A DNA stretch of 64,000 nt from Liolophura sinensis (lineage: Eukaryota; Mollusca; Polyplacophora; Chitonida; Chitonidae). Numbering within the stretch: the stretch's first letter is position 1; each line of letters starts with the position of its first letter. The stretch spans positions 15,165,850 to 15,229,849 of the forward strand of contig NC_088304.1 in assembly GCF_032854445.1 (NCBI RefSeq), written 5' to 3'. Position numbers and translations under genes: made by a program. Of the stretch, positions 9,040-61,254 are shown in pieces. The notes under the pieces were generated by a model, which saw only the letters and a program-made list of their open reading frames with translations, was not told where the DNA came from and did no database searches.

Positions 9040-10560
9040 TTGCTATGTTAAAAAAAATGAGTAACTATAAAATGTTGTTCGCGGTTGAATTTAAAGCAAC
9101 AAACAATAAACTGTTGTCTCCAGCTGATTTTAGTGCAATAAACCATTACAATATTGTCCCCACCGTGTTTTACCCTCTAGAATGTAGCGCCGAGTGTATT
9201 ATAGAGCTATACCCGTTATAAAATGACGTTCTCAGTTTGTCATTTATTCATTTATTTGAATGATGCTTAACTGCCACAGCCTACTAGTATATTAAAGCAA
9301 AAACCACTATTGTATACCTTGTCTCCAGCGTATTTACAGTACTCAACTATGTAAAATGTACATGTCCCTGTCCTATTTTAAAGCCAAAAACACTGACATA
9401 TCTCTTAGTGAACAGTATGGCCATCTATTATATAGGGCATAATTCTCTTCCCATTGTGGGCTATAGAGTAGTTCTCTAAGGAATGTTGATGCAAATTTTA
9501 AACCAAATCACTACTGTTTTGCTCTCATTGGGTTTTAAACCAAACCAGTAGACCTATATCCAATTGTTGCCGGTGGGTTTGTATAGAGCAATCCGCTACT
9601 TCATATTCTTGTCGATGGGTTTGTATAGAGCAATCCGCTACTTGATATTGTTGCCGGTGGGTTTGTATAGAGCAATCCGCTACTTGATGTTGTTGCCGGT
9701 GGGTTTGTATAGAGCAATCCGCTTATTGATGTTGTTGTCTGTGGGTTTGTACAGAGCAAGGCGCTACTAGATGTTGTTGCCGGTGGGTTTGTATAGAACA
9801 ATCCGCTTATTGATGTTGCTGTCGGTGGGTTTGTATAGAGCAGTCCTCTACTTGATGTTGTTGCCGGTGGGTTTGTATAGAGCAATCCGCTTATTGATGT
9901 TGCTGTCGGTGGGTTTGTATAGAGCAGTCCTCTACTTGATGTTGTTGCCCGTGGGTTTGCACAGAGCAATCCGCTACTTGGTGTTGTTGCAGGTGGGTTT
10001 GTACAGAGCAATCCGCTACTTGATGTTGTCGTCGGTGGGTTTGTATAGAGTAATTCGCTGCTTGATGTTGTTGCCGGTGGGTTTGTATCGAGCAGTCCGC
10101 TACTTGATGTTGTTGTCTGTGGGTTTGTATAGAGTAATTTGCTGCTTGATGTTGTTGCCGGTGGGTTTGTATAGAGCAGTCTGCTACTTAATGTTGTTGC
10201 CCGTGGGTTTGCACAGAGCAATCCGCTACTTGGTGTTGTTACCGGTGGGTTTGTATCGAGCAATCCGCTACTTGGTGTTGTTGCCCGTTTTTTTGCACAG
10301 AGCAGTCCGCTACTTGGTGTTGTTGCCCGTGGGTTTGTACAGAGCAATCCGCTACTTGGTGTTATTGCCAGGGGATTTTAACGCAAAATAGTTTTATCCC
10401 CAGTACATTTGGAGCAAACCACTGTAAAACGTTCCTCTCAGTGGATTTTGTAGCAACCCATTATGAAACACTTATCCTATGGGATTGCACATTAATTCAC
10501 ACTAACAGGTTCTCCACTATCTCTCCCGCGTGGTTCTTTAGAGAACCTTCGCAACATCGT
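9040..10560. repeat. Diverged flanks of the 42 bp array
   Basis: Either side of the clear array, weaker copies of the same theme recur (TTTTAAACCAAATCACTACTG, GTGGATTTTGTAGCAACCCA, TTGTCCCCACCGTGTTTTA), suggesting an older and larger array whose centre was re-amplified. The limits are approximate. Confidence 0.45.
9563..10385. repeat. 42 bp minisatellite, about 19 copies
   Basis: The unit is built on GTGGGTTTGTATAGAGCAAT followed by CCGCTACTTGATGTTGTTGCCG. Since 42 is divisible by 3, long frames stay open on both strands (TNPPATTSSSGLLY-type repeats on minus, VGLYRAIRYLMLLP-type on plus). No promoter, splice pattern or conserved start supports coding. Units differ by scattered substitutions. 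Confidence 0.9.
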
Positions 10561-18000: not shown

Positions 18001-21000
18001 AAACTGTCTACACCGATCGTTTCCATACAGAGTAAGGGTACCTCGCCCCACCCCACCTCGTTCATCCCCTGGGCCACCCCACACAACAAACCACCACCCC
18101 CACGGACAGAATGACCACATCCGGCCGTCGTGAGAGCTGCTCTGCTGATTCCTTTATCATACTTGTATGACCTTCCCTATAAATGGAAAAAAGAATTTCT
18201 CTAATTAGATCTTTATTACTTAATTTATTGCTGTTTTACGCGGTACTCAAGAATATTTCACTAAGATGACCCTGTTCAGCATTACGTTGGAAGGTAATCG
18301 TGCTGATCCCGGGGGACCCAATTTTTACAGTAATGATTGCGGATTTGATTTTTCCGTGTTGTGAGAATTTGATGAAGCGATCGTGCATTATTCTTTTAAT
18401 GGCCACCCCGAGCGCCCATAAGTGCTTTACTTTCAAAACTACTAACTCCTTACCAGTATGGTCGTGGTGTTTAAATGCATCCCGATGTGTTTAAAAGCTT
18501 TTTCAGCCAGATGGGTAGAAGCGCCGCCTCCCACCAACATACTCACATCGTATATCAAAGCAGGAATTCCCCGCCAAAAAAAATAGAAAAACTGACGAAA
18601 TTTAGTCCACATATCAATGTATTGTAGAACAGATCTCTCCATGTAGGAACTACACCTCTACAGTGCTTCAGCAGGCTTCACCACAAAGCCCTGAATTCTG
18701 TGCAACAATGTGAAGTATAGTCTTCAAAGCTAATACCAATTTCCACAATAACGTTCAGCACAAACAACCAAAGAAGTCAGAAAGTATATAAAAAGAGATT
18801 AGGACGGCTTCCTCAAAGGGAGCATGCCAACAGTTTTTGCTGATGATGGTAGACAAAGAGAAATCTTCTAGGCAAAATGAATTAAATCAAAGCCTGTACC
18901 ATGCTAGTGTATAATCACCCTCATGTATCTTAGTTGCGCTCTGACTGCAACTGTTTATCAATCCAACATGGCGATTGCATGTGTACTATATTGAATAGAA
19001 ACACATCTAGGAACGTTAGCGTGTCATTAGACACCGCATTCAATGTGAGGAAATATGATTAGTGTTAAGACGAATATTGAACACAATACAAAGGTCTTAC
19101 CATACGTCTTTGTTGTCAAATGGATGGACATATACAAAACCTACAAAGAAAGGAAATAATTAAAAACTCACAGGTAAGCTCGCTGTTTGTCAAAACCTAA
19201 CAGCTTACAACGTTTAAACTCTGCACTATACTTTTTCGCCAGCAGCTTGCGTGCCTTGAAAACATAGGAACGGAATATTGGCTTTTCAATAAGGATGTGT
19301 CGCGTGAAGCTCTGGTTTCAGAGAAAGTAGACATGCGCGTGTATGTAAGGTTCTTTGAGGATTAAGATACTAACATACGCGGGCTATCAATTACCTGGTT
19401 GCTCGCAGAGTTTGAGTGCATACGAGTTGGCTTCGTCCCACACTTCTCCATGGATTTCAACTTCAGCACCCTGTGATATGAACAGGTAAAGAGAGGTGTC
19501 ACAAGTATATGAACCCTATAGTTTCAAAAACAACGTTGTTCATTGATGATACAGGTGTAGATGTCAAAAGATGTCAAAATCAAATTTAAATACGACCAAG
19601 CATGTCGTTTTTATGAGACGAAAATTTCAACAAACAATTCAAGCCATATAACCCAATTGAAATGTACAAAAAAGTATACCTTTAGAACCGTGCGTCCGTT
19701 CGTTCACTGAAAAAAACGTCAGTTGACGTGGATTTTAAAACTTTATGAATTCAACACACAATAACACATACATGAAGGTTACACACGATTTAGGAGAAAT
19801 ACAAATCTGATAAACTTACATAATAAGTCCGAAGCTTGTCCGCTACAAAATTCGGGGTACTTTTAGGAAGTACGATTCGTGCGGGTATCTTCAGCGCCTG
19901 CGCAGAATATGCCGCTGCTAGACCAGCATTTCCGCCGGAAGCACATACTATCGTCTTGCAACCTCTTTCTTTTGCCTGTGGTGAAACGGAAATAGAAATT
20001 CATTTCTTCACACATAGTTCAATTTAATTTACCCATGAATGGTTTCTCCGCTTTTTCTCCACCCATAGAGATGACCATCATAGTAGAAATACTTTTGATT
20101 TTGGCGTAAAAAAAAACAACTGAATACGTGTAATACATTCAAGGAAATTTTAATATGGTAGGTTTTTCGCACACTTTGACGCAGCTCTACAGATCAAAGA
20201 CCCAACTGATGTTCTACAGGATAACACCGTATTACAATAGAAACGAGACACATGAGAAGAGAAAACAGAACAGGGAAGCCCACCAAAATAAGATCAATCA
20301 TATACCTTGGAACGTCAACGGAAACTTCTCCAAGAAGACGATTGTAGTTCTGTGTATTTTAGGGTGTAAAGTCTTTTTTTGCTGCCAGCCTGCCGTTTTT
20401 GGTGTACAGGTGCATGCTTGGTATCAAAATGATGGAAATTGTCTAAGCTTTGGGCAGGTATGAGTTTTAATGGTGAAAGTTTGAAATTCTGGGCGAGAGG
20501 ACACAAGGAGACAGATGGTGATGAGGCTGCGAGTGACGTCCCCTTGGCGTTGCTAGGCACCCCTCCCAGCTGCCGGCATGGAAAGGTCCAGATTTTGACG
20601 GTCAATCTATGTCAAGATTTTTACAGCTTCTTTCTCACAGGCTGGGCCAGGTATGCACCACAGCTTATTGGCCTCGGAATGTTTGGGACTGAGCTACAGC
20701 GCTACACGTTAACATTGTCGCTTATGGAAAACTAATGGGGGTCTGTGGCCAAATGCGCTGTGCTGTCTAACCGTCAGTATGTGAGGCGGAGGAACAGTTT
20801 GAAATAAAGCACGAATCTCGCAGGTCACCACCAGGCGAAAGGAATCATGGGAGACAATCTTAAACTAATCAGCTAATCTATCCGTGAATTACGATAGTTG
20901 AACTCAGATTTTAGACGTTTCCCCACTTGGGGCTCATAGTCTTCACTCTGTTTGTTGGTGTTGTGTTGTGAACTTCCGTAAAGTTCCGTAATATTCCGTA

Positions 21001-22167
21001 AATGGACTATCTTTTTGACGACATGCAACCATAGATGTAATATGCAGTTTTGTGTGAATTAACAGCACAATGTAGGAAGAAAGGGTTCTGTTTAACAGCA
21101 ACAACACAGAATTCTCTGCTGTAAATGAGTACCACATCTTTCCTTTACAAGCGCAGTGTAGGCCGCTTCGGTGGCCTAATAGTCAGAGCGTCCGCCTCGA
21201 GGTCGGGACGTCCGCTTCGGGGGCGTTAGATCCAGGGTCAATCCTGTCTCGGGTCACACCTAAGTCCTTAAAAGAGGAAGTTATAACTTCCTCGCTCGGC
21301 GTTCAGCATTAAGAGGATAGTGTAACGACTGGTTGACCCGTATCAGTATAAAATGGCTCGGGTGGGGCCACTTACTTGCTTTCAGTGAAGCAGTACCAGA
21401 TAAAAGAGCAGTGGAAACTCGTCCTGCAACAAGGAGGCACATTATATACACTCTAAGTATTCCTTCGTCATCATATGACTGAAAAATTGTTAAATACGAC
21501 ATTAAACGCCAAACACTGACTCACTCACTCACTCGAAGTCGGGAGGCCGGCAAAATGATAGGATCTCAACTCCGGATCGGATCATAGCAAAGATTTTAAA
21601 AATGGTACTTGTTTCTACCTCACTTGTACTGAGAGGTTAGAGCAAGAAAAGTCAGTATAATGTGACTGGGTGGGGTTTCTTGTCTTGTGTCTTCCGCACG
21701 ATACATCAGTAGCGGAAGCACTCTGGCAGCATGGGTTCGCTCTGCCACAACACAGTAGGCTTATATGTACACACATCTATTGACTCTTCGTCTTCATATA
21801 TCTGACAGATTAAGTTAAGTGCGACGTAAAACCTCACACATACATACAACAAGACGTCATGTACACAGACACTGTGACGCATTACAGAAAAGAGCAAAAG
21901 TGTGCATTGCTTGGTTCGACTTCATCGTTTTCGGTAAATTAGACCAATCTTTTCCTTTACTGTTAAAGTGGGTTTTGTTGATTACAGCCTCACCTTTTTA
22001 CACTGATGACTTATCCCCCTGCACTTGAAGGACCCCGGGGGTTGAAGATTTTCCAGTTTGAGGAAGACATCAAATCCCGTGAGAAGTTTCATCGGCCTAC
22101 TATCTATGACTGGCGTCACCAAATAGAGCGGCGGGCTTGTTCCCGAGTTGTCTGTACGGGAATTCAT
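15011..22167 (-). CDS. SDS: L-serine dehydratase / threonine deaminase (SDS-like), 7 coding exons, one frameshift
   Basis: This is a PLP-dependent deaminase that would convert L-serine (and threonine) to pyruvate (2-oxobutyrate) plus ammonia in the cytosol. Coding exons in transcript order: 21994-22167, 19820-19975, 19395-19470, 19101-19140, 17950-18176, 17443-17567, 15011-15198. All have GT-AG borders and compatible phases. With one base restored the product would be about 328 residues, the length of human SDS. The Schiff-base lysine is in PPGSFKCRG (about residue 48). ASGGNAGLAAAYSA, HPFDNKDVWEGH, VEPACGAALAA and the C-terminal VIVCGGSSVS follow in family order. The ATG at 22167 lies just inside an exon whose acceptor is at 22169-22170, so a 5' UTR exon must lie upstream; I could not find it. 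Odd: exon 5 is one base short in a run of five Gs at the tetraglycine loop (expected SVGGGGLLCG), shifting frame. SDSL is the alternative family name. Confident in family, less so in intactness. Confidence 0.9.
15660..15673. repeat. C homopolymer in SDS intron 6
   Basis: There are fourteen Cs, then a short CA run. Confidence 0.8.
15690..16190. repeat. ~190 bp tandem repeat, about 2.5 copies, in SDS intron 6
   Basis: CCACCAAG-type motifs at about 15766, 15956 and 16145, each preceded by a CATCATCCC-like block and followed by an A-rich CCTGATAATTTGAATAAAAA stretch, show a 190 bp period. Units are diverged. Confidence 0.75.
16570..16795 (-). mobile_element. SINE family A, near full length, in SDS intron 6
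   Basis: The tail side lies at left (GGTGTTTTACGCCGTACTCG) and a head with GAGGCCCCC at right. It has the same orientation as the host gene. Confidence 0.88.
16880..17300 (+). repeat. Intronic repeat copy 1 (SDS intron 6)
   Basis: AAGTATATGTAGTGCGAAAT, ACCATGCTAGTATATAAGTT and CAGTTGTGCTTTGAGTGCAG match, in the same order, a segment at 18720-19010. The end (GATTGAAATCGTCACATAAC, GTAACAAATGCTATG) matches 62095-62170. Confidence 0.55.
17585..17930 (+). mobile_element. Probable SINE related to family C, in SDS intron 5
   Basis: The end GTTAAGCGCGACATTAAACA / CCAAGCAAACATAC matches the family B/C 3' block with a CATAC-type tail. The body is diverged and the start is uncertain. It ends about 20 bases downstream of the SDS exon 5 donor. 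Confidence 0.5.
18071..18095 (-). other. SDS: One-base frameshift in the PLP phosphate-binding loop of the SDS-like gene
   Basis: Exon 5 reads in one frame through WEGHTSMIKESAEQLS and VVILSVG. It then continues in the +1-shifted frame as GGGLLCGVAQGMNEVGWGE. The switch falls in a five-G run (five Cs on the given strand, about 18087-18091) where six are needed for SVGGGGLLCG. Both flanking exon phases demand 228 bases, but the exon has 227. A homopolymer base-calling error is the simplest reading; a recent null allele is the alternative. Confidence 0.75.
18220..18332 (-). mobile_element. SINE family A 3' fragment, diverged
   Basis: CTGTTTTACGCGGTACTCAA and AGAATATTTCACT, followed by a diverged body, lie 44 bases upstream of SDS exon 5. 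Confidence 0.75.
18720..19010 (+). repeat. Intronic repeat copy 2 (SDS intron 4)
   Basis: AAGTATATAAAAAGAGATTA, ACCATGCTAGTGTATAATCA and AGTTGCGCTCTGACTGCAAC match copy 1 in order and orientation. Confidence 0.5.
21160..21537 (+). mobile_element. SINE family B, full length, (ACTC)n tail
   Basis: It has a tRNA-like head (GCTTCGGTGGCCTAATAGTC, GATCCAGGGTCAATCC) and the body GTTCAGCATTAAGAGGATAG, TGGTTGACCCGTATCAGTAT and CCTGCAACAAGGAGGCACAT. The 3' block GAAAAATTGTTAAATACGAC / ATTAAACGCC is followed by an ACTC tail. It lies in SDS intron 1. Confidence 0.92.
21700..21855 (+). mobile_element. Probable SINE 3' fragment, family C type
   Basis: GACTCTTCGTCTTCATATAT and GTTAAGTGCGACGTAAAACC with a CATACATAC tail. 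Confidence 0.5.
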
Positions 22168-22224
22168 CCTACAAATAATCAGGAATATCAAGATTTCTGC
22201 CCACTTCCTTCAATAATATTTAGG

Positions 22225-38100: not shown

Positions 38101-41100
38101 AAATAGGACGCAAGACAAACTGATGGTCTTGTCATTGCAAAGTGAAAATGTCACACCCATCATGTATGCTTTGTGATACAACATTGCTGACTCTGTGACA
38201 CTGCAGAATATAGGGTCTTGTGGAAGAAAATTGGAAATTTAACAGGATATGGGTGGATCTGTGGCCTTGTGGCCTTGTGGTTGGCATGCTAGAACAGCAC
38301 AATGACCTCACCAATGTGATCTGTATGAGTTCAAGTCCAGCTCATACCGTCTTCCTCCCCACTCTTACGTGGGAGCCAGCAACCTTTGGATGGACATGAG
38401 TTTTCCTTCGGCTCTGCAGGTTTCTTCCCAGCATAATGCGGACCAAGAGTGTAAGAGTTAAAAATTCTTTAGTAAGGCATAAAACACCAATCAGATAAAT
38501 AAATAAATCTGTTAGCTCTCGTTTGCATCTGTTTCATCAGAGCTTCTCAGACTGCTTAGATTTCGCTCTCACTTTCAAAGGGTGATGTGATGAAATCTCT
38601 GTGTGCATTTGTGCCCTTACATAATCACTTTAGATAAAATGTGAGAATTGTGTTAGTGTTTGACAAAATACATTTCCGTGTGTGTGCTCACAGAGAATTG
38701 TGTCAGTGTTTGACAAAATACATGTCCATGTGTGTGCTCACAGAGAATTGTGTTAGTGTTTGACAAAATACATGTCCATGTGTTTGTGCTCACAGAGAAT
38801 TGTGTCAGTGTTTGACAAAATACATGTCCATGTGTGTGCTCACAGAGAATTGTGTCAGTGTTTGACAAAATACATGTCCATGTATGTGCTCCCAGAGAAT
38901 TGTGTCAGTGTTTGACAAAATACATGTCCATGTGTGTGTTCACACAGAACTGTGTTACTGTTTGACCAAATACATGTCCATGTGTGTGCCCACAGAGAAT
39001 TGCATCAGTGTTTGACAAAATACATGTCCATATGTGTACTCACAGAGAATTGTCTTAGTGTTTGATAAAATACATGTCCATGTGTGTGCTCACAGAGAAT
39101 TGTGTTAGTGTTTGACAAAATACATGTCCATGTGTGTGCTCACAGAGAATTGTGTTAGTGTTTGACAAAATACATGTCCATATGTGTGCTCACAGAGAAT
39201 TGTGTTAGTGTTTGACAAAATACATGTCCATGTGTGTGCTCACAGAGAATTGTGTCAGTGTTTGACAAAATACATGTCCATGTGTGTGCTCACAGAGAAT
39301 TGTGTTACTGTTTGACAAAATACATGTCCATGTGTGTGCCCACAGAGAATTGTGTTAGTGTTTGACAAAATACATGTCCATGTGTGTGCTCACAGAGAAT
39401 TGTGTTAGTATTTGACAAAATACCTGTCCATGTGTGTGCTCACAGAGAATTGTGTTAGTGTTTGACAAAATACATGTCCATGTGTGTGCTCACAGAGAAT
39501 TGTGTCAGTGTTTGACAAAATACATGTCCATGTGTGTGCTCACAGAGAATTGTGTTAGTGTTTGACAAAATACATGTCCATGTGTGTGCTCACAGAGAAT
39601 TGTGTTAGTATTTGACAAAATACATGTCCATGTGTGTGTGCTCACAGAGAATTGTGTTACTGTTTGACAAAATACATGTCCATATGTGTACTCACAGAGA
39701 ATTGTCTTAGTGTTTGACAAAATACATGTCCATGTGTGTGTGCTCACAGAGAATTGTGTTAGTGTTTGACAAAATACATGTCCGTGTGTGTGCTCACAGA
39801 GCATTGTCAGTGTTTGACAAAATACATGTCCATGTGTGTGCTCCCAGAGAATTGTGTTAGTGTTTGACAAAATACATGTCCATGTATGTGCTCCCAGAGA
39901 ATTGTGTCAGTGTTTGACAAAATACATGTCCGTGTGTGTGTGCTCACAGAGAATTGTGTTAGTGTTTGACAAAATACATGTCCATGTGTTTGTGCTCACA
40001 GAGAATTGTGTCAGTGTTTGACAAAATACATGTCCATGTGTGTGCTCACAGAGAATTGTGTTAGTGTTTGACAAAATACATGTCCATGTGTGTGCTCACA
40101 GAGAATTGTGTTAGTATTTGACAAAATACATGTCCATGTGTGTGTGCTCACAGAGAATTGTGTTACTGTTTGACAAAATACATGTCCATATGTGTACTCA
40201 CAGAGAATTGTGTTAGTGTTTGACAAAATACATGTCCATGTGTGTGTGCTCACAGAGAATTGTGTCAGTGTTTGACAAAATACATGTCCATGTGTGTGCT
40301 CACAGAGAATTATGTTAGTGTTTGACAAAATACATGTCCATGTGTGTGCTCACAGAGAATTATGTTAGTGTTTGACAAAATATATGTCCGTTTGTGTGCT
40401 CACAGAGAATTGTGTTAGTGTTTGACAAATACCTGTCCATGTGTGTGCTCACAGAGAATTGTGTTAGTGTTTGATCAAATACATGTCCATGTGTGTGCCC
40501 ACGGAGAATTGCATCAGTGGTTGACAAAATACATGTCCATATGTGTGCCCAGAGAGAATTATGTCAGTGTTTGACAAAATACATGTCCGTGTGTGTGCTC
40601 ACAGAGAATTGTGTTAGTGTTTGACAAAATACATGTCCATGTGTGTGTGCTCACAGAGAATTGTGTTAGTGTTTGACAAAATACATGTCCATGTGTGTGC
40701 TCCCAGAGCATTGTGTTAGTGTTTGACAAAATACATGTCCATGTGTGTACTCCCAGAGAATTGTGTTAGTGTTTGACAAAATACATGTCCATGTGTGTGT
40801 GCTCACAGAGAATTGTGTTAGTGTTTGACAAAATACATGTCCATGTGTGTGCTCCCAGAGAATTGTGTCAGTGTTTGACAAAATACATGCCCATGTTTGT
40901 GCCCACAGAGAATTGTGTCAGTGTTTGACAAAATACATGTCCATGTGTGTGCTCACAGAGAATTGCATTAGTGTTTGACAAAATACATGTCCGTGTGTGT
41001 GCTCACAGAGAATTGCATTAGTGTTTGACAAAATACATGTCCATGTGTGTGCTCACAGAGAATTGTGTTAGTGTTTGACAAAATACATGTCCATGTGTTT

Positions 41101-42450
41101 GTGCTCACAGAGAATTGTGTCAGTGGTTGACAAAATACATGTCCATGTGTGTGCTCACAGAGAATTGCATCAGTGTTTGACCAAATACATGTCCATGTGT
41201 GTGCTCACAGAGAATTGTGTTAGTGTTTGACAAAATACATGTCCATGTGTGTGCTCACAGAGAATTGTGTTAGTGTTTGACAAAATACATGTCCATGTGT
41301 GTGCTCACAGAGAATTGCATTAGTGTTTGACAAAATACATGTCCATGTGTGTGCTCACAGAGAATTGTGTTAGTGTTTGACAAAATACATGTCCATATGT
41401 GTGCTCACAGAGAATTGTGTTAGTGTTTGACAAAATACATGTCCATGTGTGTGCTCACAGAGAATTGTGTTAGCGTTTGACAAAATACATGTCCGTGTGT
41501 GTGCTCACAGAGAATTGTGTCAGTGTTTGACAAAATACATGTCCATGTGTGTGCTCCCAGAGAATTGTGTCAGTGTTTGACAAAATACATGCCCATGTGT
41601 GTGTGCTCACAGAGAATTGTGTTAGTGTTTGACAAAATACATGCCCATGTGTGTGTGCCCACAGAGAATTGTGTTAGTGTTTGACAAAATACATGTCCAT
41701 ATGTGTGCTCACAGAGAATTGTGTCAGTGTTTGACAAAATACATGCCCATGTGTGTGTGCTCACAGAGAATTGTGCTACTGTTTGACAAAATACATGCCC
41801 ATGTGTGTGTGCTCACAGAGAATTGTGTTAGTGTTTGACAAAATACATGCCCATGTGTGTGTGCTCACAGAGAATTGTGTTAGTGTTTGACAAAATACAT
41901 GTCCATGTGTGTGCTCACAGAGAATTGTGTTAGTGTTTGACAAAATACATGTCCGTGTGTGTGCTCACAGAGAATTGTGTTAGTGTTTGACAAAATACTG
42001 GGAGCATGCAATTTATCATTTCAGGTTATTGAGAAGAGCCTTGGACAAAATTGGAGAAATAAAAGGAATACGTGAGAACAGAAGATTAGGTGAGTTACAC
42101 ATTTTAAACTGAGTGAAAGCAGATTAGGCAAGTTAGACATTGAAGAAGATTAGGTGACTTACATTGGAGAAATGCAGGAGATTAGGTGAGTTTAACTGGA
42201 TGAGAGTGAAAAATTAAATGCCTTAAACTTCACAAAAGAAGAGTACTGAAGATGTTGTGTCTGTTTGATTAAGCATATTTGGACTTTTGGCTGGTATTTA
42301 AACATGGTAATCTGAACCGTTATCAATTTAATTAATGTAATTTGGCGTTGTCTTGTCGGTACACATTGTGTATCAAGAGAAGAATGTGCAGCTTTCTGCA
42401 ACAATTGTCTTCTTCATGTTGAGTGTTGTCTCTTATTCATGTGATTAGAG

Positions 42451-42506
<56 letters not shown>

Positions 42507-45500
42507 CAAATAGTGTATCAAAAGAATGACCATAGAATGCATGTAACTGTGTTTCTCACTGCTACATATGACTCATTACTTCTTAATCCTGTAGCTGATT
42601 CATGTCTCACCAGTAAAGCTGCATTATCAAACCCAGCTCTCGCCGGTTTGACCACAGTTTTCGGCTGAGGGATAGTCGTGCTTAGGTGCTCTTGTTTTGT
42701 TCACCCAGAAACCTAGCAGCTGTTGTATTTTTGTAGTGAGTGTGGTATTAAACATGGTGAACTGAATAAACACATGTAATAATCACAACAGTTGTCGCTA
42801 GGCGTTCAGCATGAAGAGGATAGTGCAAGGAATGGTTGACGTGTATCACTATAATGGCTCGGGTGGGGCGGCTTACTTGCCTTCGGTAAGACGTCTCTGT
42901 GGAGCAGCACTAGATAAAAGAATGGTGGAAATCCATCCTGCAACAAGGAGGTACATTACATGTACTCTAAGGATTCCTTCGCAGTCATATGACTGAAAAA
43001 TTGTTAAGTAAGATGTTAAACCCCAAGCACTCACTCATTCACTCACTCACTCACTCACAACAGTTGTCCATGTGATTTTCAGGAGATTCGGACCGCCCTA
43101 AACAGATATTACGCCGTGGGGTGTTGATGACGATGTTACAACAGAACGCTGTTACACTACCACTGTGGGTGAGCAAGCCTGGAGAAAAGTAAGTCAAACA
43201 GTGCTGCTATGAATAAAGTGAACTTTAGTATCAAAATGCTGTTATGCCTTTGGTTTTGTTGAAGGCAGGTTAGGTTCCCTTCAAGATGGCACAAGTACAT
43301 GTATATGTAGTGTTATGTTTCAATCCAGGAAGTTAGATTTAGTAACCAGTTGTCTCACTGTACAAGTTGGCTAAAAGAAAGCTAAAATATGAAGTAAGGT
43401 TCATCATAAATACTTCATCAGTATGGTCCATAAAGCCCACCTTAGAAGTCAAATGTTTACGTGCCTTTAACTCTTTTTACCAAAATCTAAAAAAAATGAA
43501 TGAAAGTAAATTTATGCATAGTTTTATGTGGCCTACTTTGATTTTTAGAGGTCTTTTCATTTAACTGAAACGTAATCTCATGTCCAAACTTTGATTCTGA
43601 TTTAAGAGACAGAGATTTTATGTAATGTTTTGCCTGATGTGCAAATACATGTACATATATGTTGTTAGAAACAAGAAATTTGGATTCAATTTCATGTCTG
43701 GTCTGTCCTAGGGGTTTAATATTAACAGCCTGTTTACTTCCATCCTACTGTCTCGAGCTCAGCATGACAGGATTTGCCAAGTGCTAAGACAGTATTCTTT
43801 GGCTGGGTGTGGTATCACATCTGATGTCTTTGATATATGCAAATTATTGTGACAGTATGCGATCCGCGATGATGTATTAGCATCGAGTTGTCTGAGCTCA
43901 GGTGTTGTATTAGCCGAGTCCAAAGGGCGAGGCTGATGCTGAAGCCTGACCTTAGAAAACGAGATTTTGACAAAACTTTGCGGAACGTGCACCGTCCTGA
44001 TGGTCTGTTTATCATATATCTCTTTATTCAATGAAATCAACGAGAATGAAAAGTTAAAACATGCTGACGAAGTGCCTGATCACGTCACTAGTTAACCTGC
44101 AAACAAACGTAGCTCTTAATAAACATTAAATTACTCAACAGAAAGTGAATGCAAATATTAAAACTAATTCAAAAATAATCACAAAATTTCTGTTCGATGA
44201 TGCCTAACGAATAACCAGTCTTAAACAATATTATCACTATGCCAAACGGTATGCTGAGAAACAGTGCTGAGGTCACCGTGGAGGTTACTTGGAAATGTCA
44301 CCAAATGGGTGATTCACAGCAACAAAAACAAACAAATCAGATCTCAAACTGGAGCATGACTGAACTAACTTGAATGAAAAATACAATTACTGCGGTTCTC
44401 AACAAAGCTGAAATTTCATCTTGGAAAAAATTTGCAGGATCGCCAGTGGCATTTATTGCTTGTATGGCTGTCATCGTTGCGCATCCCAAATATAGATATA
44501 GGGTTTCCTCCAGTAGAGGGCGCAAACAAGGTAAGGGAGTTCAAAGCAGTCCCTGGATGAGTGCTGACGTATCAGATGGCATGTATCGGATGGCACATAT
44601 CGGATGGCATGTATCGGATGCTGTAGGCAGATAGGTTGATGATAAAGTGTTACATGTCATCATTCATGATGAAAATACAAATAGTTTTTGTAAGGGTAAT
44701 AAACCCTAACCAAACAAACAAGCAGTACATGTGCTGTGGTCACCATTGTATAATTTTGGCGTTTATTTTGATACAGTATGTCTATAAATGTGAGCTTTGT
44801 ATCCTCCCTCCCTTGCAGACCCCCTCAGTTATGTGGTGCAGTGCCAGCTGACAACAATTACGTGGCCAAACAAGGAGACAAGGTGGCTGCTAGGGTCAGG
44901 GGCTCCGATGGTGAGGAGAATTGGATCTTAGCAGAAGTAGTCTCATTTTCATCCTCATCAAACAAATATGAAGTGGATGATATTGATGCTGAGGAAGACA
45001 AAGAGTAAGCATGAAGTCTTTATATACTGTTGTGATTGAAGGAGTGTGTCATGGTTGAGTGCTTAAGAGACTTGTCTTTTGATTGCTAGAACACACAAGG
45101 TGCGAATGCAGTCCCAATCCTGGACAGGGAATTTTTACATTCCTTGCTGTCATTGTTTTGAGAGCCTTGGTAACAAGAAGTGGTTGATGATAGTCATATG
45201 GCAGTTTAACATATTTTAAAGACCACTTGCCTTCCACTAATGCAGTTTGTTCGCCACACAAGGGAAAGTTCAGCAGTTACTTGCCAGAGAGGTTGGTTTT
45301 ATCCAGAACCTCAGTTTCCTCCCTTCATAAAACTGACTGCCATTGTGTAAGTGAAAAATTCTTTAAACAACCTCTATATAAATAAAACAAATCAATAAAT
45401 ACTGGTACTATTTCATTGTAAGCTAAGCAACAGGGAACTTATCAAATATGACAATCTGACTCAGCTGTGAATGCCAAAAAAGTTTATTTTTTTGGATAAT

Positions 45501-51064: not shown

Positions 51065-54000
51065 TCAGTACTCTGGGTCATCCATTTCCTCGTCAGGTGC
51101 ACACTGGTGAATGACAGATGACAGAAGTCAAACGAACACATCAAACGTCATATTATTCATAATAAAAACAACAGAGTTTTATGATGAGCTAAAAGGATTA
51201 TTTAATACATATTATACATATTAAGTCAATCAGGTTAATAGAAAATGGAAGAAACCAAGAAACACAAAATACCTGACAAGAATTTAGAAACAACAAGTTA
51301 TCGGCAATGCATGGATATGAACAAGTGATAAACATCCAATGGCCAGGACTCGAGCAATGCACATTTCTTCAATGAACACTTAATTTATTTACTGAGAGTT
51401 CATAACACATTTAGCAATTTTTCATTTTTACAGTGGTAATCAGGATCAGGCAATCACAAATCCTGACAGAAAAAAACAAAACATTTTTCATAGCCAGGTA
51501 CCTGGCATAAAGGTAAAATCAAGACAGAGGGAAATTTGAATTACCTGACCTGAATACACCTTAGACTGATATTCATAATACCACATTTGCGAATACAAGT
51601 ATCTCATTCAAGCAAAGGTGACCAGTTTCATGTGTGGAGTAAACCACTGGCCTTTGACCATTAACTGACAAACTTTCTCACACCTATATTCTGATATTTG
51701 TGGATGGAAAGTGATCTTATACAAACTTCATGTCAGACCACACCATCATCACCGAGGCTCAGGGAGCTGGCAAAGGAGTCTCAACTCAGCTGGCAGAGGG
51801 TCTCAACAATTTCCTGCATAAAGATTGAGCATGACCCAAGACGCATGTCCAGGGCATGGCTACTGCCCACTGTGCACCCCTACTAAGCCACCATGAGCCT
51901 TAAAGCATACAGGAAAAGGTATGGTACAATAAAATGATTGGTTTTAAGGAAAATCAGGAAAGACATGCCAAAACAATCCAAAAAAAAATTTCCTTTTTTA
52001 TATTTCTTAATAACCCCTCTATCTCATTCATATTTTCCATCAATGCTCAGAAATCTTCAGTCATCGATAAACATACTGGGAAAGTAGAACCTGGGGCTGG
52101 TTTCATGAAGCCCACTTAGCTGTGAGCTCTTAACTATAATGAAAACATATGTTGGAAGAGATAAAAAGTGCACTTAGCTAAGGGAAACTGAACACTCAGT
52201 ACTCTTCATAAAACTGAACCCAGTTTAGTGCCCCCCTATTCAGTTCTTCTGTAACAGCTATCACGGCAGGCTACTTAATTTCCGATGTAAGTGACCAATG
52301 GAACCTTAGTTTAAAGCCATTTTTATGCCCTAAGAAAAAAGGTGTGAAGCTTTTGCTACTTCTATATGTTAGATCACATCATATACTGTGCATTAAGGAA
52401 CAGAAACCATGCATTTCACATATCCTTTAAGAGCCTGTCAAGTAGGGGTCTGTTAAATAAGCAAAAAGATATTGTGATTACATAAAGATCTTTGTCTGAA
52501 CTTACATAATATTCCACAAAGCAGACTTGGCCGTCCTCAGCTTTGATCATGTATTGTAAGGAGAGAAAGCCTCGGTTATCTGTGCGGATAGATATCCGCG
52601 AGGATAATCCCAGGGCTTTCACCGATGGCTTCAATAGGGAGAGTTTGTATCTGAAAAATGGTTTGTGTGCTGTTAGTCAGATTGAAGCCATACCGAAGAA
52701 GTATTCACCTATTTGGACAACAATGGTAGAGGAATTAGAGTGCCGAGAGAAACCTTTAACCTTTAATAACCTCTTTCGGCAAACATTCCATGAGTGACAC
52801 AGGTCATACTGCTTGACAGCAAGTGGTCTCCAGCAAAATGGAAGTAGTGGAATCCAAAAATTCCTTGTCTGAGGATGGGATTGAACTCACATCTTGTATG
52901 ATCTACAAGTGGTAACTGAACGGTAAACACCTTGACCCTGTGGCATGACCCACCAATCTACATCATCAAAAGTTTACAACATATCAGTTAAATAGTGCTG
53001 ATGTAGCCAGCTGCAATCATTCAAAATGTACTTTATCAAAGCTATGATATGGTGAATTATCAGAATAGAAACCAGAATCTGCTGCACAAAACCACCTATT
53101 TGTTTGTACAATCATACCTGCTTATCTGTATTGTTTATCTGTCTGTACCTGTTTGTCTGTACAGTGTTACCTGTTTGCCTGTGCCATGTCACCTTTTGGT
53201 TTGTACAAATCATACCTGTTTGTCTGTACTGTTACCTGCCTGTCTGTATCTGTTTGTCTGTACAGTGTTCCCTGTTTGTATGTACCTGTTTGCCTGTACA
53301 GAGTTACCTGTTTGTCTGTACCTTTTTGCCTGTACAGAGTTACCTGTTTGTCTGTACCTTTTTGCCTGTACAGAGTTACCTGTTTGTCTGTACCTGTTTG
53401 CCTGTATAGTTACCTGTTTGTCTGTACCTTTTTGCCTGTACAGAGTTACCTGTTTGTCTGTACCTGTTTGTCTGTACCTGTTTGCCTGTACAGAGTTACC
53501 TGTATGTCTGAAAAGTGGTACCTGCTTGTCTGTACTTGTTCCTCTGTACAGCTTTCACCAGTTTGTGTGTACAATGTTACCCGTTTGTCTGTAAAGTGCT
53601 ACCCCTTTGTCTGTATTAGTGTTACCAGTTTGTCTGTACAGTGTTACCAGTTTGTCGGTGCTGTATTACCTGTCTTTCTGTGCCATGTTACTTGTTTGTC
53701 TATACAGGGTTACCGGTTTGTCCGTGCTGCATTACCTATTTGTGTGTGCTGTGTTACCTGTTTGTGTGTTCTGTTACCAGTTTGTCTGTGACAAGTTACC
53801 AGTTTGTCAGTACACTGTTACCGATTTGCCTATCCTGTGTTACCATTCTGTCAGTGCCATGTTACCTGTTTGTGTGTGCTGTGTTACCTGTTTGTCTATA
53901 CTGTGTTACTGATTTGTCTGTGCTGTGTTACCAATTTGTCTGTGCTGTGTTGCCTGTTTGTGTTACAGTACTACCTGTTTATTTGTGCTGTGTTACCTGT

Positions 54001-57000
54001 TTGTCTGTGCTGAGTTACCTGTTGGTCTGTTCCATGTTACCTGTTTGTCTGTTCAATGTTACCTGTTTGTCTGTTCAATGTTACCTGTTTGCCTGTGCTG
54101 AGTTACCCGTTTGTCTGTTCTGAGTTACCCGTTTGTCTGTTTAATGTTACCCGTTTGTCTGTTCCATGTTACCTGTTTGTCTGTTCCATGTTACCTGTTT
54201 GTCTCTTCAATGTTACCTGTTTGTCTCTTCAATGTTACCTGTTTGTCTGCAGCTGATCACACTGAAAAGATTCCACCATGTCTGAATCTTTGGAGAAGTC
54301 AGACTGAAAACAACAAAGGGGAGGGGTTATAAACAAACTGTATTTACAGAATTACATGAGGCTAAAAAAAAACATTTAAGAATCTGTGGAACACAATGCA
54401 ATAAACATGAAATATATGAGTATTAACAGACCATATAAACAGTAGGTCTACTTACACCAAAATATAACAATAATGCTGGCCGCTGTCGTATAAGTGAAAT
54501 ATTCCTGAGTACGGCGTAAAACACCAATCAAATAAATAAATAAATAAATAAACCAAAATATACAGCACTGGTCTGAGTCACATCTAGTCACATCCTCTAA
54601 CAACTTCAAGACAAATTTTCTCATGTTTTACCAAATATAAAATTTTGTGAGTTTTATAGTCAATTTGGGCATTGTATTCAACAATGCCACTTTACTATCA
54701 TCATGGCTAATCAATTTACAGGTCAGGAGTTATAGTTAATTGTCTGTGTTGAGCAGATGATGGGTAGTTCTTAAACTGCTGTGTTCAGAGCTTACGACCA
54801 TCAGCCATTGAGATCACTAAGACTTACAGGCAACCGAAAAGGTTTTGTGTTAGAAACTTCTTTATGTAGAGGTACACACACACAAAATGTTGTGATGTCG
54901 ACAGATGCCATATAAAGTGAAAAAACCGTTACAATCGTGTGTTGCCATGGTAACCAAAATCAACTTGTTCTACAAAAAGCTTAAAGGAAGCTACATGGCC
55001 CGGACCATCAAGCAAGACATATGTAATCTGACTTATAAAGGGCCCTAGTTTTACCTGGCTTTTAATTAATTTTTTTAAAATCTTCATTAGCTAGAATTTG
55101 AAAAAAATGTACTTGGCCTACTGACTTACCCTATTTTTGCTGAGAAAAGTTATGCCTCCAATAACATGTTTCTTATGAAAGCCCAAAGTTATATCAGTTA
55201 TATCCAGAAATGTATAAAGAGGAAATGACCCGTACATAAGCACTCCCTGCATATCCAAATGTGGAGAGCCTGAAGTAAGGATGATCTGGTGACATGATGA
55301 TCTCTAGCACATCACTGGTCATGTCAAGCTCACTGAATGCTTCCTTCAGGCACTCGGACTGGAAAACAACAACAGAAAACATTCACCAGAAGATTCATTC
55401 AAACAATCGGGCTGGAAAAACGACGACAGAAAACATCCATCAGAAGATTCATTGAGGCACTCTGACTGGAAAACAACAACAGAAAACATTCATCAGAAGA
55501 TTCATTGAGGCACTCCTACTGGAAACAAAAACAGAAAGCATTCACCAGAAGATTCATTCAGACAATCAGGCTGGAAAAACGACAACAGAAAACATCCATC
55601 AGAAGATTCATTCAGACAATCGGGCTGGAAACAGAAACAGAAAACATTCACCAGTAGATTCATTCAGACAATCAGGCTGGAAAAATGACAACAGAAAACA
55701 TCCATCAGAAGATTCATTCAGACAATCGGGCTGGAAAAATGACAACAGAAAACATTCACCAGAAGATTCATTCAGACAATCGGGCTGGAAAAACGACAAC
55801 AGAAAACATCCACCAGAAGATTCATTGAGGCACTCCGACTGGAAACAGAAACAGAAAACATTCACCAGAAGATTCATTCAGACAATCAGGCTGGAAAAAT
55901 GACAACAGAAAACATTCACCAGAGGATTCATTCAGACAATCGGGCCGGAAAAATGACAACAGAAAACATCCATCAGAAGATTCATTCAGACAATCGGGCT
56001 GGAAAAATGACAACAGAAAACATTCACCAGAAGATTCATTCAGACAATCGCGCTGGAAGCAACAACACAAAAATTTAACCAGAAGATTCTTTCAGGCACG
56101 TGGACTGAAAACAACAACAGAAAAGCTACCTCTCCCGTCGTAAGTGGGAAGGTCTGACAGCAACCTGCAGATGGTCATGGGTTTTCCCTGGGCTCTGGCC
56201 AGTTTCCTCCAAACATAATGCTGGCTGCCGTATTATAAGTGAAATATTCTTGAGTACGGCGTAAACACCAATCAAATAAATAAATAAATAAATAATTAAA
56301 TTAATCCATTACATAGTAATTATAGTAAACAACATATGTCCTGAGCTAATGATTCAGCCAATCCTGTGAGTGCTACAGCTGTAGGTACGAGTCTGCAACC
56401 CCATTGGTCAGATGCAACCGCCTGCGACAACAACAATTGTTATAGTCAACAGAACCAGTGATGGCCCCAAAACCAGCATAATCTCTGCCCCTCAATCATG
56501 AACATCATCAGTTCTCACCTTCATAATAATTTTGTTAATAACGTTTGTGCTACAAAAGTTGAAATCCAGCACTTCGTCTGGTTCCAGCGTCTTGATACTG
56601 CAGTCTGTAAGTACTCCTTCCTCCTCTAAACTGAAACAGAAGACCAACAATAAACACAGTTTCACTCTTTATACATGTACCACTCACATCTCAAGCTTAT
56701 AAATGTTAACAGGAATCTAGCAGAAGTCAGGGTTCGTACACCTCAAAAATTTTCCAGGCTTTTTTCCAGGCCATAAATTCACATTTCCCAGGCTGCTTGG
56801 AATAAATATTATGCACTTTCACAAGCTTGAGGCAATGTGAAGTGACCTTATTTACTTTCAGCCTTTGATATACACTTATATACAGCAGTGCACTGTACAA
56901 TTTTAGAAATGTTGGAAAATAAGTCTCCTCAAGGGAATGTCAGCATAGTATACACACTAGCTCAGGATGGTTCAGTCTCAATTTCATGGCTTTTCCAGGC

Positions 57001-60000
57001 CCATCTATAAACCTCCCAGATTTTCCAGGCTTTTTAAGGCTTGCAAAGGTCACTTCAAATTCCAAGCTTTTCAGAGTTTCAATTTTACACCAGGTGCTGG
57101 ATTTGAACTTGCAACCCCACTGTTCTAGTCCAAAGGCTATAAATAAACTCTCCAAGTTAGCCCCCTCTGAAGTGATGTTTTTAATGATTAAAACTTTTAT
57201 AATTATTTATTTGGTGTTTTATTGCGTATTCAGGAATATTTCGCCTATATGACAAAACACACAAGCATCCGCAGAGACCTTCCCACATACAGCCAGAGAG
57301 GAAGCCAGCATGAGCCAGACAAAGCGTCCACACTGGTGAGAGGCTCCTTGCTCATTGTGCCACACTGGCCACGGAGGCCCCCCTAAATGATTAAGACGTC
57401 AGCAGTGTCTTCAAATCTTACAGTAGTGTTAGCGGACTTCCGTATCCAGCATAGCACATCTTCAGACTGGTGGTTGAACCTGCTGAGGGGTTGGCACCAA
57501 AAATGGTTAAACAGTCCTGGAGAAAGGAAAACAAAATTAATAGTTAGGATTACTGAATGTAAAACTGAATATACCACTAACCTGCTTTAACAAATAAACA
57601 TCACACATGTTTAGGAGAAGTCAATGAATGAATGCTGGTTATTGCTATGAGTATACATCACCAGCACTAAAGCTACGTAAACAATGTGGACTTCATTCAC
57701 TCTGTCTTTTTCTGATCATCCAATTGTGGGCAAAAACTGCACCTTTACAACATAAATTTGCAACCTTTCCATCGAAAACCTGTGACATGAAGGCCCTACT
57801 TGTACTGTCAGGTGTTTGGTTCTGCAGTTCCAAAAAGTGAATCAAAAGCTACCAGAGTTTTTCAAAATTCAAAACTCCAAAATGCAAGCAGAAAGTTATT
57901 TTGTTCACCCACCATTAACACAGTGAGATTGATCTTGAAGGTGACCTGCTCCTCTTTGATGACAAACTCATGGAATATACCTGCCTGGATGAAGGCATTG
58001 GCCTGTACACACTTAGCATCTTCAACGGTCACCTTAAACCCCATAGAGCTGGCAAACACAGTGGCTGTCTGGCAAATAAAATTTGTATACATGTACATAT
58101 ACTACAATCTTGTCAGTGCACTACAGTGAGCAGCTTCTCCAATTCGGGCTGGCACATACCAGAAATCTGGAGAAATGTCCACTGACCTCATGTATCTTAC
58201 AGCTTTTAATAATAATGGCAGCTGTATTAAGCTCAATGCATCGGGTGCATTCAAAATCCGGACTGTATTTGAGGCCATTGGTCAGAAAAAATGCACAACG
58301 AAGCAGATGTGCAGACAATAGCAACAAGCCTTGAGTGGGCGTTCAGAATTAATGCTTCTCGCCTGATTGACTGGGAAAATTGTACTTTCTGTTCTACATC
58401 CATGATGACTACAGAAATCATGTCCAACCTTGGCATTAAGAGTGAGTTAGCGTTTGGGGTTTAACTTTGTTCTTGACAATTTTTCAGCCGTGCGACAACA
58501 AAGGAATCCTTAAATTGCATTTAATGTGCCTCCTTGTTACAGGACGGATTTCCATCGCTCTTTTATCTAGTGCTGCTTCACTAAGACAACTTACCGAAGG
58601 CAGGTAAGCCGCCCTGCCCGAGCAATAATACTGATACGGGTCAACCAGTCTTTGCACTACCCTCTTAACGCTGAACGCCAAAGGAGGAAGTTACAACTTC
58701 CACTTTGAAGGTCAAAGGTGTGACCCAATCCAGGATTGACCCTGGATCTACTGCTCCGAAGCTGACGCTCTACCAACGAAGCTATCGGGGCCAGTAACTT
58801 GGCATTTAAGAATGGATGCGTGGTTTTGTTATATTGATTTCTGTATGTTGTGGTGCACATTTCTAGTACACCCAACTCATCGTGACAGCATAAAGTTATT
58901 TTACTGAGTGAGAAGAAAATACTTCTGTGCATTTCAACAACATTTCGACTCAGGACTGGTAATAAAGGTTCTATTCTATGTAATGCACACCAGAAATGCG
59001 TGTGCAGTTGTTATAAAGTGGGTTTAAAGGCTCTCTCTGTTCCGCAAAGTGTCCTGCAAAAATGAACCCCCTGGACTTTTTAATTCAATGATTAAATGTT
59101 GAGGTAGGTAAATATCAGAAATTGTTGAAAATAGATCTCAACCTTTAACTTAATTGAGCTATAAATATTGAGGTCAAATATATCTCTAGTATCCTTTATA
59201 AGTCAAAACTGATTTGGGGGATACATGCACCTGTGCGCACATAACAAGTCGCTTACAACATTTACTTTATAGTCTGAGACTGCTTTGACATTAGGTTTGG
59301 CAAACTTTTTTGTTCGACCAAGGTTGGCCCCCACCACGGTCAGAACACGCTCCATTTAAAAACCTGATGCAGTTAAACGGCTTTGTCAAAAATGTCGCGG
59401 CTCAGTACAGCCATTCACTTTGGGCATCACCATGGAATCTCGGAACCATGCGGCAGATCGACATTGTGCTTAAGATAAATCGACAGACGAAAACATAAAG
59501 AACATATAGTGTCTGCGAACATAAGGCCATGTAGTCCATCAAGATGGACATAGTGTGCTATTTTAAAATTAAAATTCATACATTCATCATAACAGTGAAT
59601 CTATCGCCGACTCTCAAACAAATCGCCGCACATCTGCACACTCCAACTCGAAGGAGCCGATCTCAATGAGATCCGTGCTCATGGCACCCAAACTTACATG
59701 CACAAGTTCTTTTTCATGCCAGTTTGGATTGAATTAAGTAGGTTGAAGTTGTTCTTGCAGATGGCAATCGAAATATAATAGTTTTCTTGAGGATTTCAAT
59801 ACCAGAAATCAGTAGCATTTCAAACACACAAGTAGGTCACGTGACACTTCAAAATGGCTGTCCTCGGCAAGGCACTTGATACCACTGAAGCTCTACCAGT
59901 CAATGTGACCACCACATAGCAAGTTAATCAGTTTCGTAGGTGAGGATATTAGCAACAGCGTTGTCCTGGATGATAACGATCGTAAGGCCTTGCGCAGTCA

Positions 60001-60917
60001 TGGCTGGGTCCCTTTTATCCTGGTAGGATGAATTGTAAAATTTTAGAAAACAGTTGATCACTAACGTACCTCGCCCGTCCAGCGACTCCTTTACAATACT
60101 TAGGGTCCTAGGGAACCCGATTGTTAAAATGCTGAGATGTCAATCATCCCAAAGGTAAATATCCATCCATACTTATTGAAGTCCCCCTCTCCACTGACTT
60201 TTCATTTATAAAATAGCCGCCATCTACATGGCACACATGCACGGCCAGGCAGATGAATACGCAACGGCTGACTGGCTTCATTTGTGGAGGTCAGGCATAT
60301 CAAAACAATGGCACAATGGCTCTAGTTTGGTTCCCTGATGCACTATTTGTACTATCTAAAATAGATGGGACTCGAACCAGCCTGCACCTGATCGCATAAC
60401 AACAAAAGGACTTCATAACCAGCATAACTGAAGGGAGGGATAATTTTGTATCCAGCCACCAGGCAGCGCATGCGTGCCGTATGAATGGCGGCCATTTCGT
60501 AAATGAAAAGTCAGCGGAAAAGGGGACTTTAATAAATATGGATGGATATTTACCTTTGGGACGATTGATATCTCGGGATTTTCACAGTTAAATGCCCTAG
60601 GACCCTAAGCATTGTAAAGGAGTGGTTGGATGGCCTAGGTACGTTAGTAATTGACTGCTTTCCGACATTTTACAATTCATCCTATCGGGCTAAAGGGAGC
60701 CCACCCATGACTATGCGAGGCCCTACAAACGTTGCCATCCAGGACTAACGTCAGCGGGATCTCAGACTAGCCTTAGGGTAAACGTTATGTTGTTGTTGTA
60801 TCTCACATCTTTGAAGTGGATCGCCTTCAGGATATTGGACACATTTCTGACGTTGTCAATCTTGGCCATGACCAGGTACTGTCCGTCATCGTCCCCCTGC
60901 TGCGTGGAGAGCGACAT
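51065..60917 (-). CDS. RAD1: RAD1, 9-1-1 checkpoint clamp subunit, 8 exons
   Basis: RAD1 is the PCNA-like subunit that joins RAD9 and HUS1 in the 9-1-1 DNA-damage clamp, which activates ATR. Exons in transcript order: 60807-60917, 57913-58068, 57422-57516, 56519-56630, 55236-55358, 54239-54303, 52506-52650, 51065-51103. Phases agree at every junction, giving 281 residues (human 282) with no alignment gaps that I could see. Landmarks: DNVRNVSNILKAIHFKD, FKVTVEDAKCVQANAFIQAG, FKINLTVLM, DFNFCSTNVINKIIMK, EAFSELDMTSDVLEI, PYFRLSTFGYAGSA, KDSDMVESFQC, SIRTDNRGFLSLQYMI, EDGQVCFVEYY. The start at 60917 (MSLSTQQGDDDGQY) aligns with human MPLLTQQIQDEDDQY; an in-frame ATG at 60947 is possible. Odd: intron 4 ends in an array of copies of the exon 5 acceptor, intron 6 begins with an array of copies of the exon 6 donor, and intron 1 contains a long fold-back element. 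Confidence 0.96.
52795..52960 (-). mobile_element. SINE family D fragment in RAD1 intron 6
   Basis: On minus, GAGTTCAATCCCATCCTCAG, TTGGATTCCACTACTTCC and GAGACCACTTGCTGTC. It matches the family D head and body order. Confidence 0.6.
53105..54250 (-). repeat. RAD1 intron 6 minisatellite made of exon 6 donor copies
   Basis: There are thirty or more copies of a ~22 bp unit, read on the minus strand as CAGACAAACAGGTAACATTG and variants, starting within the last bases of exon 6 (CTGCAGACAAACAG/GTAACATTG). Copies near the exon are the most regular. Distal copies (53.1-53.5 kb) mix ~18 and ~36 bp arrangements with GTACAGGC variants. About two thirds keep CAG/GTAAC; others read CGG or CTG before GTAAC. 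The overlapping Cys-rich frames on the given strand are products of the repeat, not genes. Confidence 0.93.
54470..54553 (+). mobile_element. SINE family A 3' fragment in RAD1 intron 5
   Basis: ATAATGCTGGCCGCTGTCGT, then AAGTGAAATATTCCTGAGTA and an (ATAA)n tail. Confidence 0.88.
55359..56106 (-). repeat. RAD1 intron 4 minisatellite made of exon 5 acceptor copies
   Basis: There are fourteen extra copies of a 52-54 bp unit directly upstream of exon 5, read on the minus strand. Each unit holds a T-rich tract, TTTCCAG and exon-like bases such as CCCGATTGTCTGAATGAATC, corresponding to the true junction TTTTCCAG/TCCGAGTGCCTGAAGG. Junction-equivalent positions on the given strand: 55411, 55465, 55518, 55570, 55624, 55676, 55730, 55784, 55838, 55890, 55944 (AG lost), 55998, 56052, 56104. 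In-phase runs of units stay open over 80-90 codons, which gives spurious ORFs. The exon 5 frame meets a TGA in the nearest unit, about 25 bases before the exon. Confidence 0.93.
56128..56300 (+). mobile_element. SINE family A, 5'-truncated, abutting the acceptor array of RAD1
   Basis: It starts in CCGTCGTAAGTGGGAAGGTC and ends in (ATAA)n. It lies directly upstream, in RAD1 sense, of the most distal acceptor copy. Confidence 0.88.
56728..57075. repeat. Interspersed repeat rich in TTTTCCAGGC, RAD1 intron 3
   Basis: CAGGGTTCGTACACCTCAAA and repeated TTTTCCAGGC / CCAGGCCCAT blocks resemble a widespread non-autonomous DNA-transposon type that begins CAGGGTTCGTAC. Limits are approximate and the class assignment is tentative. 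Confidence 0.4.
57200..57385 (-). mobile_element. SINE family A, shortened, ending 37 bp from RAD1 exon 3
   Basis: TTTATTTGGTGTTTTATTGC, GAGAGGAAGCCAGCATGAGC and a head with GGCCACGGAGGCCCCCC. The central body is missing. The head end is at 57385 and the exon 3 donor is at 57421. Confidence 0.82.
58440..58795 (-). mobile_element. SINE family B, full length, in RAD1 intron 1
   Basis: Same body in reverse (GCCTCCTTGTTACAGGACGG, ACTGATACGGGTCAACCAG) and a complete tRNA-like head ending near 58795. The ACTC tail is almost absent. It has the same orientation as RAD1. Confidence 0.9.
59953..60755. mobile_element. Fold-back (long inverted repeat) element in RAD1 intron 1
   Basis: The left arm (about 59953-60245) and right arm (about 60462-60755) are imperfect inverted copies. 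TTGTCCTGGATG, AGGATGAATTGTAAAAT, CTTTACAATACTTAGGGTCC, AAAGGTAAATATCCATCC and GACTTTTCATTTA on the left reappear reversed on the right. The ~215 bp between the arms codes for nothing recognisable. This looks like a non-autonomous DNA transposon (MITE/foldback). Its right edge is only ~50 bp from the exon 1 donor at 60807. I did not see a clear target-site duplication. Confidence 0.8.
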
Positions 60918-61254
60918 TCTAGGCTCGCCCAGGTCAGGGACAGGCATTGCAGAGCAAAGCTCAAAAGACAATACCTCTTTCTTTTCTTTGAATGCTCTCT
61001 CAATATTTCCCGCGACAGTGAAGAGGTTCGTGTAAGGGAGATAATTACCAAACTACCCACCGCCAAGTCCGCTGAATCTGCGTCAGTCAATTTCATTCGA
61101 TTAAGTGTAAAACATTTTGTGAAACCTAGTAGGGTTAGCTGTATAACTTTCAGCTCACTTCGCAATCATAATCGTAATCATCTATGTATATAAACTCATA
61201 CACATCTATGTATTTAAACCGATACAAATGTACTAAATTGCGAAAGATCTACAG

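Follow-up and report, generated by a model that had tools for sequence, protein, structure and literature searches.

The window analysed here, a stretch of 64,000 nucleotides of DNA from Liolophura sinensis, carries on its minus strand a RAD1 gene whose coding region (51065..60947) is divided into eight coding exons. In the stitched gene model these are exon 1 (60947-60807), exon 2 (58068-57913), exon 3 (57516-57422), exon 4 (56630-56519), exon 5 (55236..55358, 123 nt), exon 6 (54239..54303, 65 nt), exon 7 (52650-52506) and exon 8 (51103-51065), and AG and GT were found at the borders of all eight. The translation is 100% identical to the NCBI cell cycle checkpoint protein RAD1-like (P0001) of Liolophura sinensis, and a query with incorrect last 7 residues matched human RAD1 (3g65_B) at E=2.2e-126. 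The Pfam Rad1 domain (PF02144, E=1.1e-81), that of the 9-1-1 clamp protein, spans residues 27-266 of the 291 in P0001 and so makes up most of the protein length. The identity to the NCBI protein and the human match confirm the gene call of the initial annotation; similarly, its placement of the exon 5 start at 55358, with the true acceptor being the exon-proximal one, agrees with the NCBI record and with an alignment to human RAD1 that runs ungapped over the exon 5 junction. Introns 4, 5 and 6 measure 1160, 932 and 1588 nt, respectively. Intron 5 (54304..55235), between exons 5 and 6, contains no array reported by TRF, and the pair of exons that it separates is flanked by an array of acceptors on one side and an array of donors on the other.

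The acceptor array occupies the end of intron 4 and, as cut at each C[AG]G from 56104 to 55359, comprises 14 units (55359..56104, minus strand), four of 52 bp, two of 53 bp and eight of 54 bp. On direct reading, a partial first unit of 20 nt of intron tail, TTTTCTGTTGTTGTTTTCAG, forms its 5' edge (56105..56124, minus strand), which is also the TRF edge. TRF describes the array as 14.7 copies of 54 bp with 85% matches at 55341-56124, so that the first 18 nt of exon 5 are taken as the last partial repeat; the junction itself was fixed by the protein match. Fourteen tandem units of 52-54 bp before exon 5, each but one retaining its AG, had been proposed earlier, and both points are borne out: of the 14 acceptors that precede exon 5, all end in AG but the one whose exon side is 55944, which has GG, leaving 13 with AG.

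Each unit consists of a diverged exon 5 start of about 30 nt followed by an intron tail of about 21 nt that ends in CAG (once in CGG). Past the first 14 exon bases the units stay exon 5-like to about +29; between +15 and +30 the unit consensus matches exon 5 at 9 of 16 positions (7 to 9 for single units), a level attained by 1.0% of the minus-strand 16-mers of the window. The initial annotation was thus right about a copied junction of intron tail, CAG and exon start, but judging from the sequence the exon portion of the copy probably measures closer to 30 nt than to the 20 nt it had given, and because units resemble exon 5 to about +29 the founding block probably covered roughly positions -21 to +32 relative to the junction. 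Mean pairwise identity among the units is 85%, almost level up to seven units apart and falling further out, and 26 of the 54 columns show no variation. TRF also gives periods of 160 and 214 within the array, which fits the block duplication expected inside it. A protein search with one 89-aa reading frame of the acceptor array returned 297 candidates, none at E<=0.01.

On analysis of the 15 acceptors, counting the true site, the pyrimidine fraction at -22 to -5 was found to be 0.72-0.83 throughout, and AG is present in 14. A branch-point-like CTGAT lies 28-29 nt upstream in five of the 15, the GG site among these, and CTTAC lies 37 nt upstream of the first acceptor only; in this motif scan of all 15 sites the unit of the true acceptor has neither. 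The near-equal quality ascribed earlier to these acceptors therefore holds for the pyrimidine tract but is not evident for the branch point. Four of the 14 decoys (55838, 55784, 55730 and 55676) keep the reading frame with exon 5 and 10 lose it, in keeping with the frame shift that had been claimed for most. The in-frame decoys were said to read as far as a TGA lying about 25 bases short of exon 5; this proved incorrect, as their stop starts 252 nt before the exon. Acceptors 55465 and 55411 enter exon 5 out of frame and meet a stop 10 nt inside, and the remaining 12 decoys meet one before exon 5. A premature stop thus follows from all 14, with the GG site counted, so that alternative acceptor use is predicted from the reading frames usually to inactivate RAD1, as had been expected. 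Each of these stops lies >50 nt ahead of the last junction, a position that would usually expose the transcript to nonsense-mediated decay.

A second array, absent from the initial annotation, lies at the start of intron 6 (53095..54238, minus strand), where about 56 tandem copies of the exon 6 donor follow one another. The exon 6/intron 6 junction reads GCAGACAAACAG/GTAACATTG, the slash marking the splice site, and the 56 decoy units, of 22 bp and later of mixed 14 and 22 bp, repeat GACAAACAG/GTA. The units were located through their exon-like part (-12 to -3) alone, the GT playing no part in the choice, and GT is retained in 52 of the 56. TRF reports 71% matches for this array and lets it reach 11 nt into exon 6, whose end is thereby taken as the first partial repeat; here too the junction was fixed by the protein match. 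The far part (53095-53554), with its mixed 14- and 22-bp units, is given a TRF period of 36 bp, and decoy donors are therefore more closely spaced there. All 56 extensions of exon 6 contain an in-frame stop, because exon 6 ends in the phase AG/G TAA; in each of them the first stop met is this immediate TAA.

Donor strength was taken as the predicted pairing energy with the U1 5' end. The true exon 6 donor scores -8.0, and the other RAD1 donors score -4.4, -9.2, -4.3, -9.6 and -5.1 (exons 1 to 5) and -5.4 (exon 7). Within the array there are 71 GTs; an R/GTR context surrounds 55, at least one of which is off the unit register. By predicted U1 pairing, 21 of these 55 sites equal or beat the true exon 6 donor and 40 equal or beat the working exon 7 donor, while 35 reach the level of the strongest 5% when set against the 455 GTs found elsewhere in the gene region (51800-61052). 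The nine bases of the true donor, CAGGTAACA, recur in 12 of the 55.

These observations are probably to be explained by two minisatellites that arose through tandem duplication across splice junctions, that are kept mostly silent by exon definition, and whose decoys are used only occasionally, with transcripts then passing to nonsense-mediated decay. A short block across each junction would have been duplicated in tandem and then expanded by slippage or unequal exchange. As the whole exon is attached to the outermost copy only, no site other than the last acceptor or the first donor can be the true one, and the decoys have to be intronic; their confinement to the intron would be the geometry that renders growth in that direction tolerable. 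Exon definition would pick the sites nearest one another across the exon and leave the arrays mostly silent, whereas low leakage to the nearest decoys would likely occur and give premature stops cleared by decay, the arrays as a whole being close to selectively neutral. The reverse order, in which an array came first and a splice site was later recruited from a repeat, was rejected: the exon residues are common to human RAD1 and align with it through both junctions, which means that the arrays derive from the junctions. When arrays of the observed lengths were placed at random within the gene, with at most 25 nt of any exon covered, 6.2% and 6.3% of the placements (20,000 trials for each array) had an edge that straddled a junction by 5-25 nt; if the two events are independent their product is about 0.4%, which is a post hoc value. 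Junctions may act as preferred seeds, or exon-anchored arrays may merely survive owing to their constrained edge. Two findings stand against this explanation: by predicted U1 pairing the true donor is no stronger than its decoys, and the columns of the donor core rank with the better conserved ones, a result that strict neutrality would not predict.

Since at both true sites the decoys lie toward the intron, the classical intron-proximity rule would favour the decoys. For human introns longer than about 250 nt, however, a database study (PMC9225289, in the part consulted) reports that, among competing donors, those closest across the exon are preferred, and that for acceptors of long introns the upstream bias is reduced, not reversed. 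The introns flanking exons 5 and 6 (1160, 932 and 1588 nt) exceed this threshold of about 250 nt and the exons are 123 and 65 nt. With long flanking introns and short exons the true sites are expected to win, at exon 6 better than at exon 5, where leakage could exceed what is assumed because the acceptor bias is merely reduced, the rule being one of human genes. The NCBI protein of Liolophura sinensis fits the exon-proximal sites exactly, although stop-bearing isoforms are not expected among proteins.

It is also conceivable, but in our view unlikely, that the arrays are functional, the decoy banks binding U1 and U2AF and setting the share of productive RAD1 mRNA as a poison-splicing rheostat. 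A premature stop from every decoy (14 of 14 acceptors, 56 of 56 donors) would suit such a role, yet these stops are largely expected, GTAA in the phase of exon 6 always being a stop. In a set of 31 donor units at regular spacing, 4 parsimony changes were needed for columns -1 to +3, a value attained by 1.4% of column sets, and columns +1 and +2 alone stand at 3.9%; a 29-unit subset without 53953 (GC) and 53558 (GTGA) gave 0.9% and 4.3%, with three column groups tried. The signal weakens to 8.3% and 6.7%, respectively, when the same test is applied to all 56 units over 15 shared columns, and column -2, which is also expected to pair with U1, is the most variable. Columns -12, -6 and -4 are conserved as well, though they are not splice signals; anchoring the units on -12 to -3 flatters those columns and therefore works against the donor-core signal. 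The comparison of units would thus offer a weak signal of constraint on the donor core, GT included, that is suggestive at most. Concealment of the decoys by RNA structure was rejected as a prediction, as both arrays are less stable than their shuffles, and that neither array is predicted to bury its sites speaks for the rheostat. The acceptor array (811 nt, 39 of them from exon 5) has z +4.1, with 20 of 20 shuffles folding at least equally, and the donor array (901 nt, of which 62 belong to exon 6 and 839 to the exon-proximal part of the array) has z +1.4, with 19 of 20. The fuller proposal, that matched decoy banks (13 AG acceptors and about 52 GT donors) with a selected donor core tune checkpoint-clamp output through fail-safe mis-splicing, appears quite improbable.

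A comparably low probability is given to the arrays being a burden, such that the decoys are often used, RAD1 output is lowered, and the arrays do mild harm and are young or polymorphic. Many decoy donors do match the true one, 12 of them with identical nine bases, the acceptor copies are on average 85% alike, and a review, as far as its consulted part goes, associates longer ABCA7 arrays with reduced expression and more frequent skipping of the exon that follows. The divergence of the donor array (71% matches), on the other hand, indicates that its presence has probably long been tolerated; RAD1 as annotated is an intact protein, and retention of one ABCA7 unit is reported as unaffected in the part of PMC5954066 consulted. 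Assembly errors commonly fall in tandem repeats, so that collapsed or expanded repeats must also be considered; we hold an artefact to be very improbable. The likely source assembly, according to the excerpts of PMC11068029, was built from PacBio HiFi reads with a mean length of 8,347 bp at 14x, and reads of this mean length should span either array; moreover, the units differ among themselves, which copying errors would not produce. That chiton genome paper uses the name L. japonica in the text seen, and a correction reopens the naming, presumably to L. sinensis. Duplication across the junctions with exon definition thus remains the reading that we prefer.

Splice-site minisatellites as a kind are known for donors in human genes, whereas an acceptor array, and a pair of arrays flanking neighbouring exons, may be new, as judged from the matches listed from the open-licence literature. 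The RAD1 arrays belong to this kind in that they straddle a junction and repeat the splice signal (AG in 13 of 14 units, GT in 52 of 56). The donor minisatellite of human IFI6, with a 12-bp unit in about 26 copies, is one such case, and a paper of 1995 (Turri) concerns it. In the accessible part of PMC4526556, IFI6 (6-16, G1P3) resembles RAD1 in having a minisatellite that supplies multiple splice donors, two downstream units being used; that use is described there as yielding different isoforms, whereas the 56 decoys of RAD1 all give a stop. Similarly, the human ABCA7 intron 18 VNTR is, in the sections of PMC5954066 consulted, a 25-bp minisatellite that starts at the exon 18 donor and whose unit opens with GT; the next donor copy is sometimes used, with out-of-frame retention of 25 nt. 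As in RAD1, the minisatellite begins at a genuine donor and each unit repeats the donor GT, but judged on the same sections ABCA7 has a single array, on the donor side only, which is highly polymorphic and disease-linked, whereas the RAD1 units copy exon sequence too and are accompanied by an acceptor array. NAGNAG tandem acceptors likewise involve neighbouring acceptor AGs in competition, but from the excerpted PMC3250501 they are two AGs three bases apart, while in RAD1 whole junctions recur every 52-54 bp and every one has a tract of its own. Splice signals are also copied when introns are gained by tandem genomic duplication (PMC4974935, PMC3443670, in the parts consulted); there the duplication is held to create a new intron, whereas in RAD1 the end of an existing intron is multiplied. 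DDX3Y/MSY2 was considered as a precedent for the acceptor array and rejected, being a promoter minisatellite according to the text consulted. Among the matches listed from open-licence full text, no acceptor minisatellite and no gene with both acceptor and donor arrays was found. The earlier statement that no array made of a splice acceptor had been described in RAD1 may accordingly be right, but the general kind is known for donors, as in IFI6 and ABCA7.

To our knowledge, the choice between duplicated, equal splice sites has been studied mostly through built minigenes and pairwise database comparisons. RAD1 offers a natural contest in which the true acceptor competes with 13 copies that keep AG and the true donor with about 52 that keep GT; with decoys at known spacing and each error flagged by a stop, it is a natural test of splice-site finding, and could show how fast the exon-centric preference declines with distance. 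The locus suggests that splice junctions are able to seed minisatellites, which is possible because intron-ward duplication is tolerated, and arrays seeded in this manner may occur more often than one would gather from the human examples.

The flanks of seven other minisatellites in the window were read as well, as bare sequence, and showed no recognisable copied junction; TRF lists 37 rows for the window, most of the remaining ones being simple or short repeats, repeats of two copies, or rows that overlap. One minisatellite, of 50-bp units in about 67 copies (38643-41998), ends about 27 bp before a probable plus-strand exon (CAG/GTTATTGAGAAG...), which perhaps belongs to SGF29, a match to the SGF29 Tudor domain being found at 44772-45005; by eye, its unit holds no copy of the adjoining acceptor. 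A 49-bp minisatellite of about 9 copies (5503-5937) is followed at once by CAG and what may be an exon, with ATGAAGTTCAAG/GTAAAG. Another, at 9564-10369, has about 19 copies of a 42-bp unit, a length divisible by three, and long open frames on both strands (206 aa plus, 258 aa minus). Probable exons of a pyridoxal-phosphate enzyme lie on the minus strand at 19793-22209, where PALP was matched in two frames at 42.5 and 31.4 bits (cut-off 35), and a minus-strand frame at 29647-29973 matches the TLC (TRAM_LAG1_CLN8) domain. Finally, a dispersed, SINE-like element ending in (AAAT)n has many copies in the window, seen as similar translated pieces, and one of these, at 56130-56310, lies just upstream of the intron 4 acceptor array.
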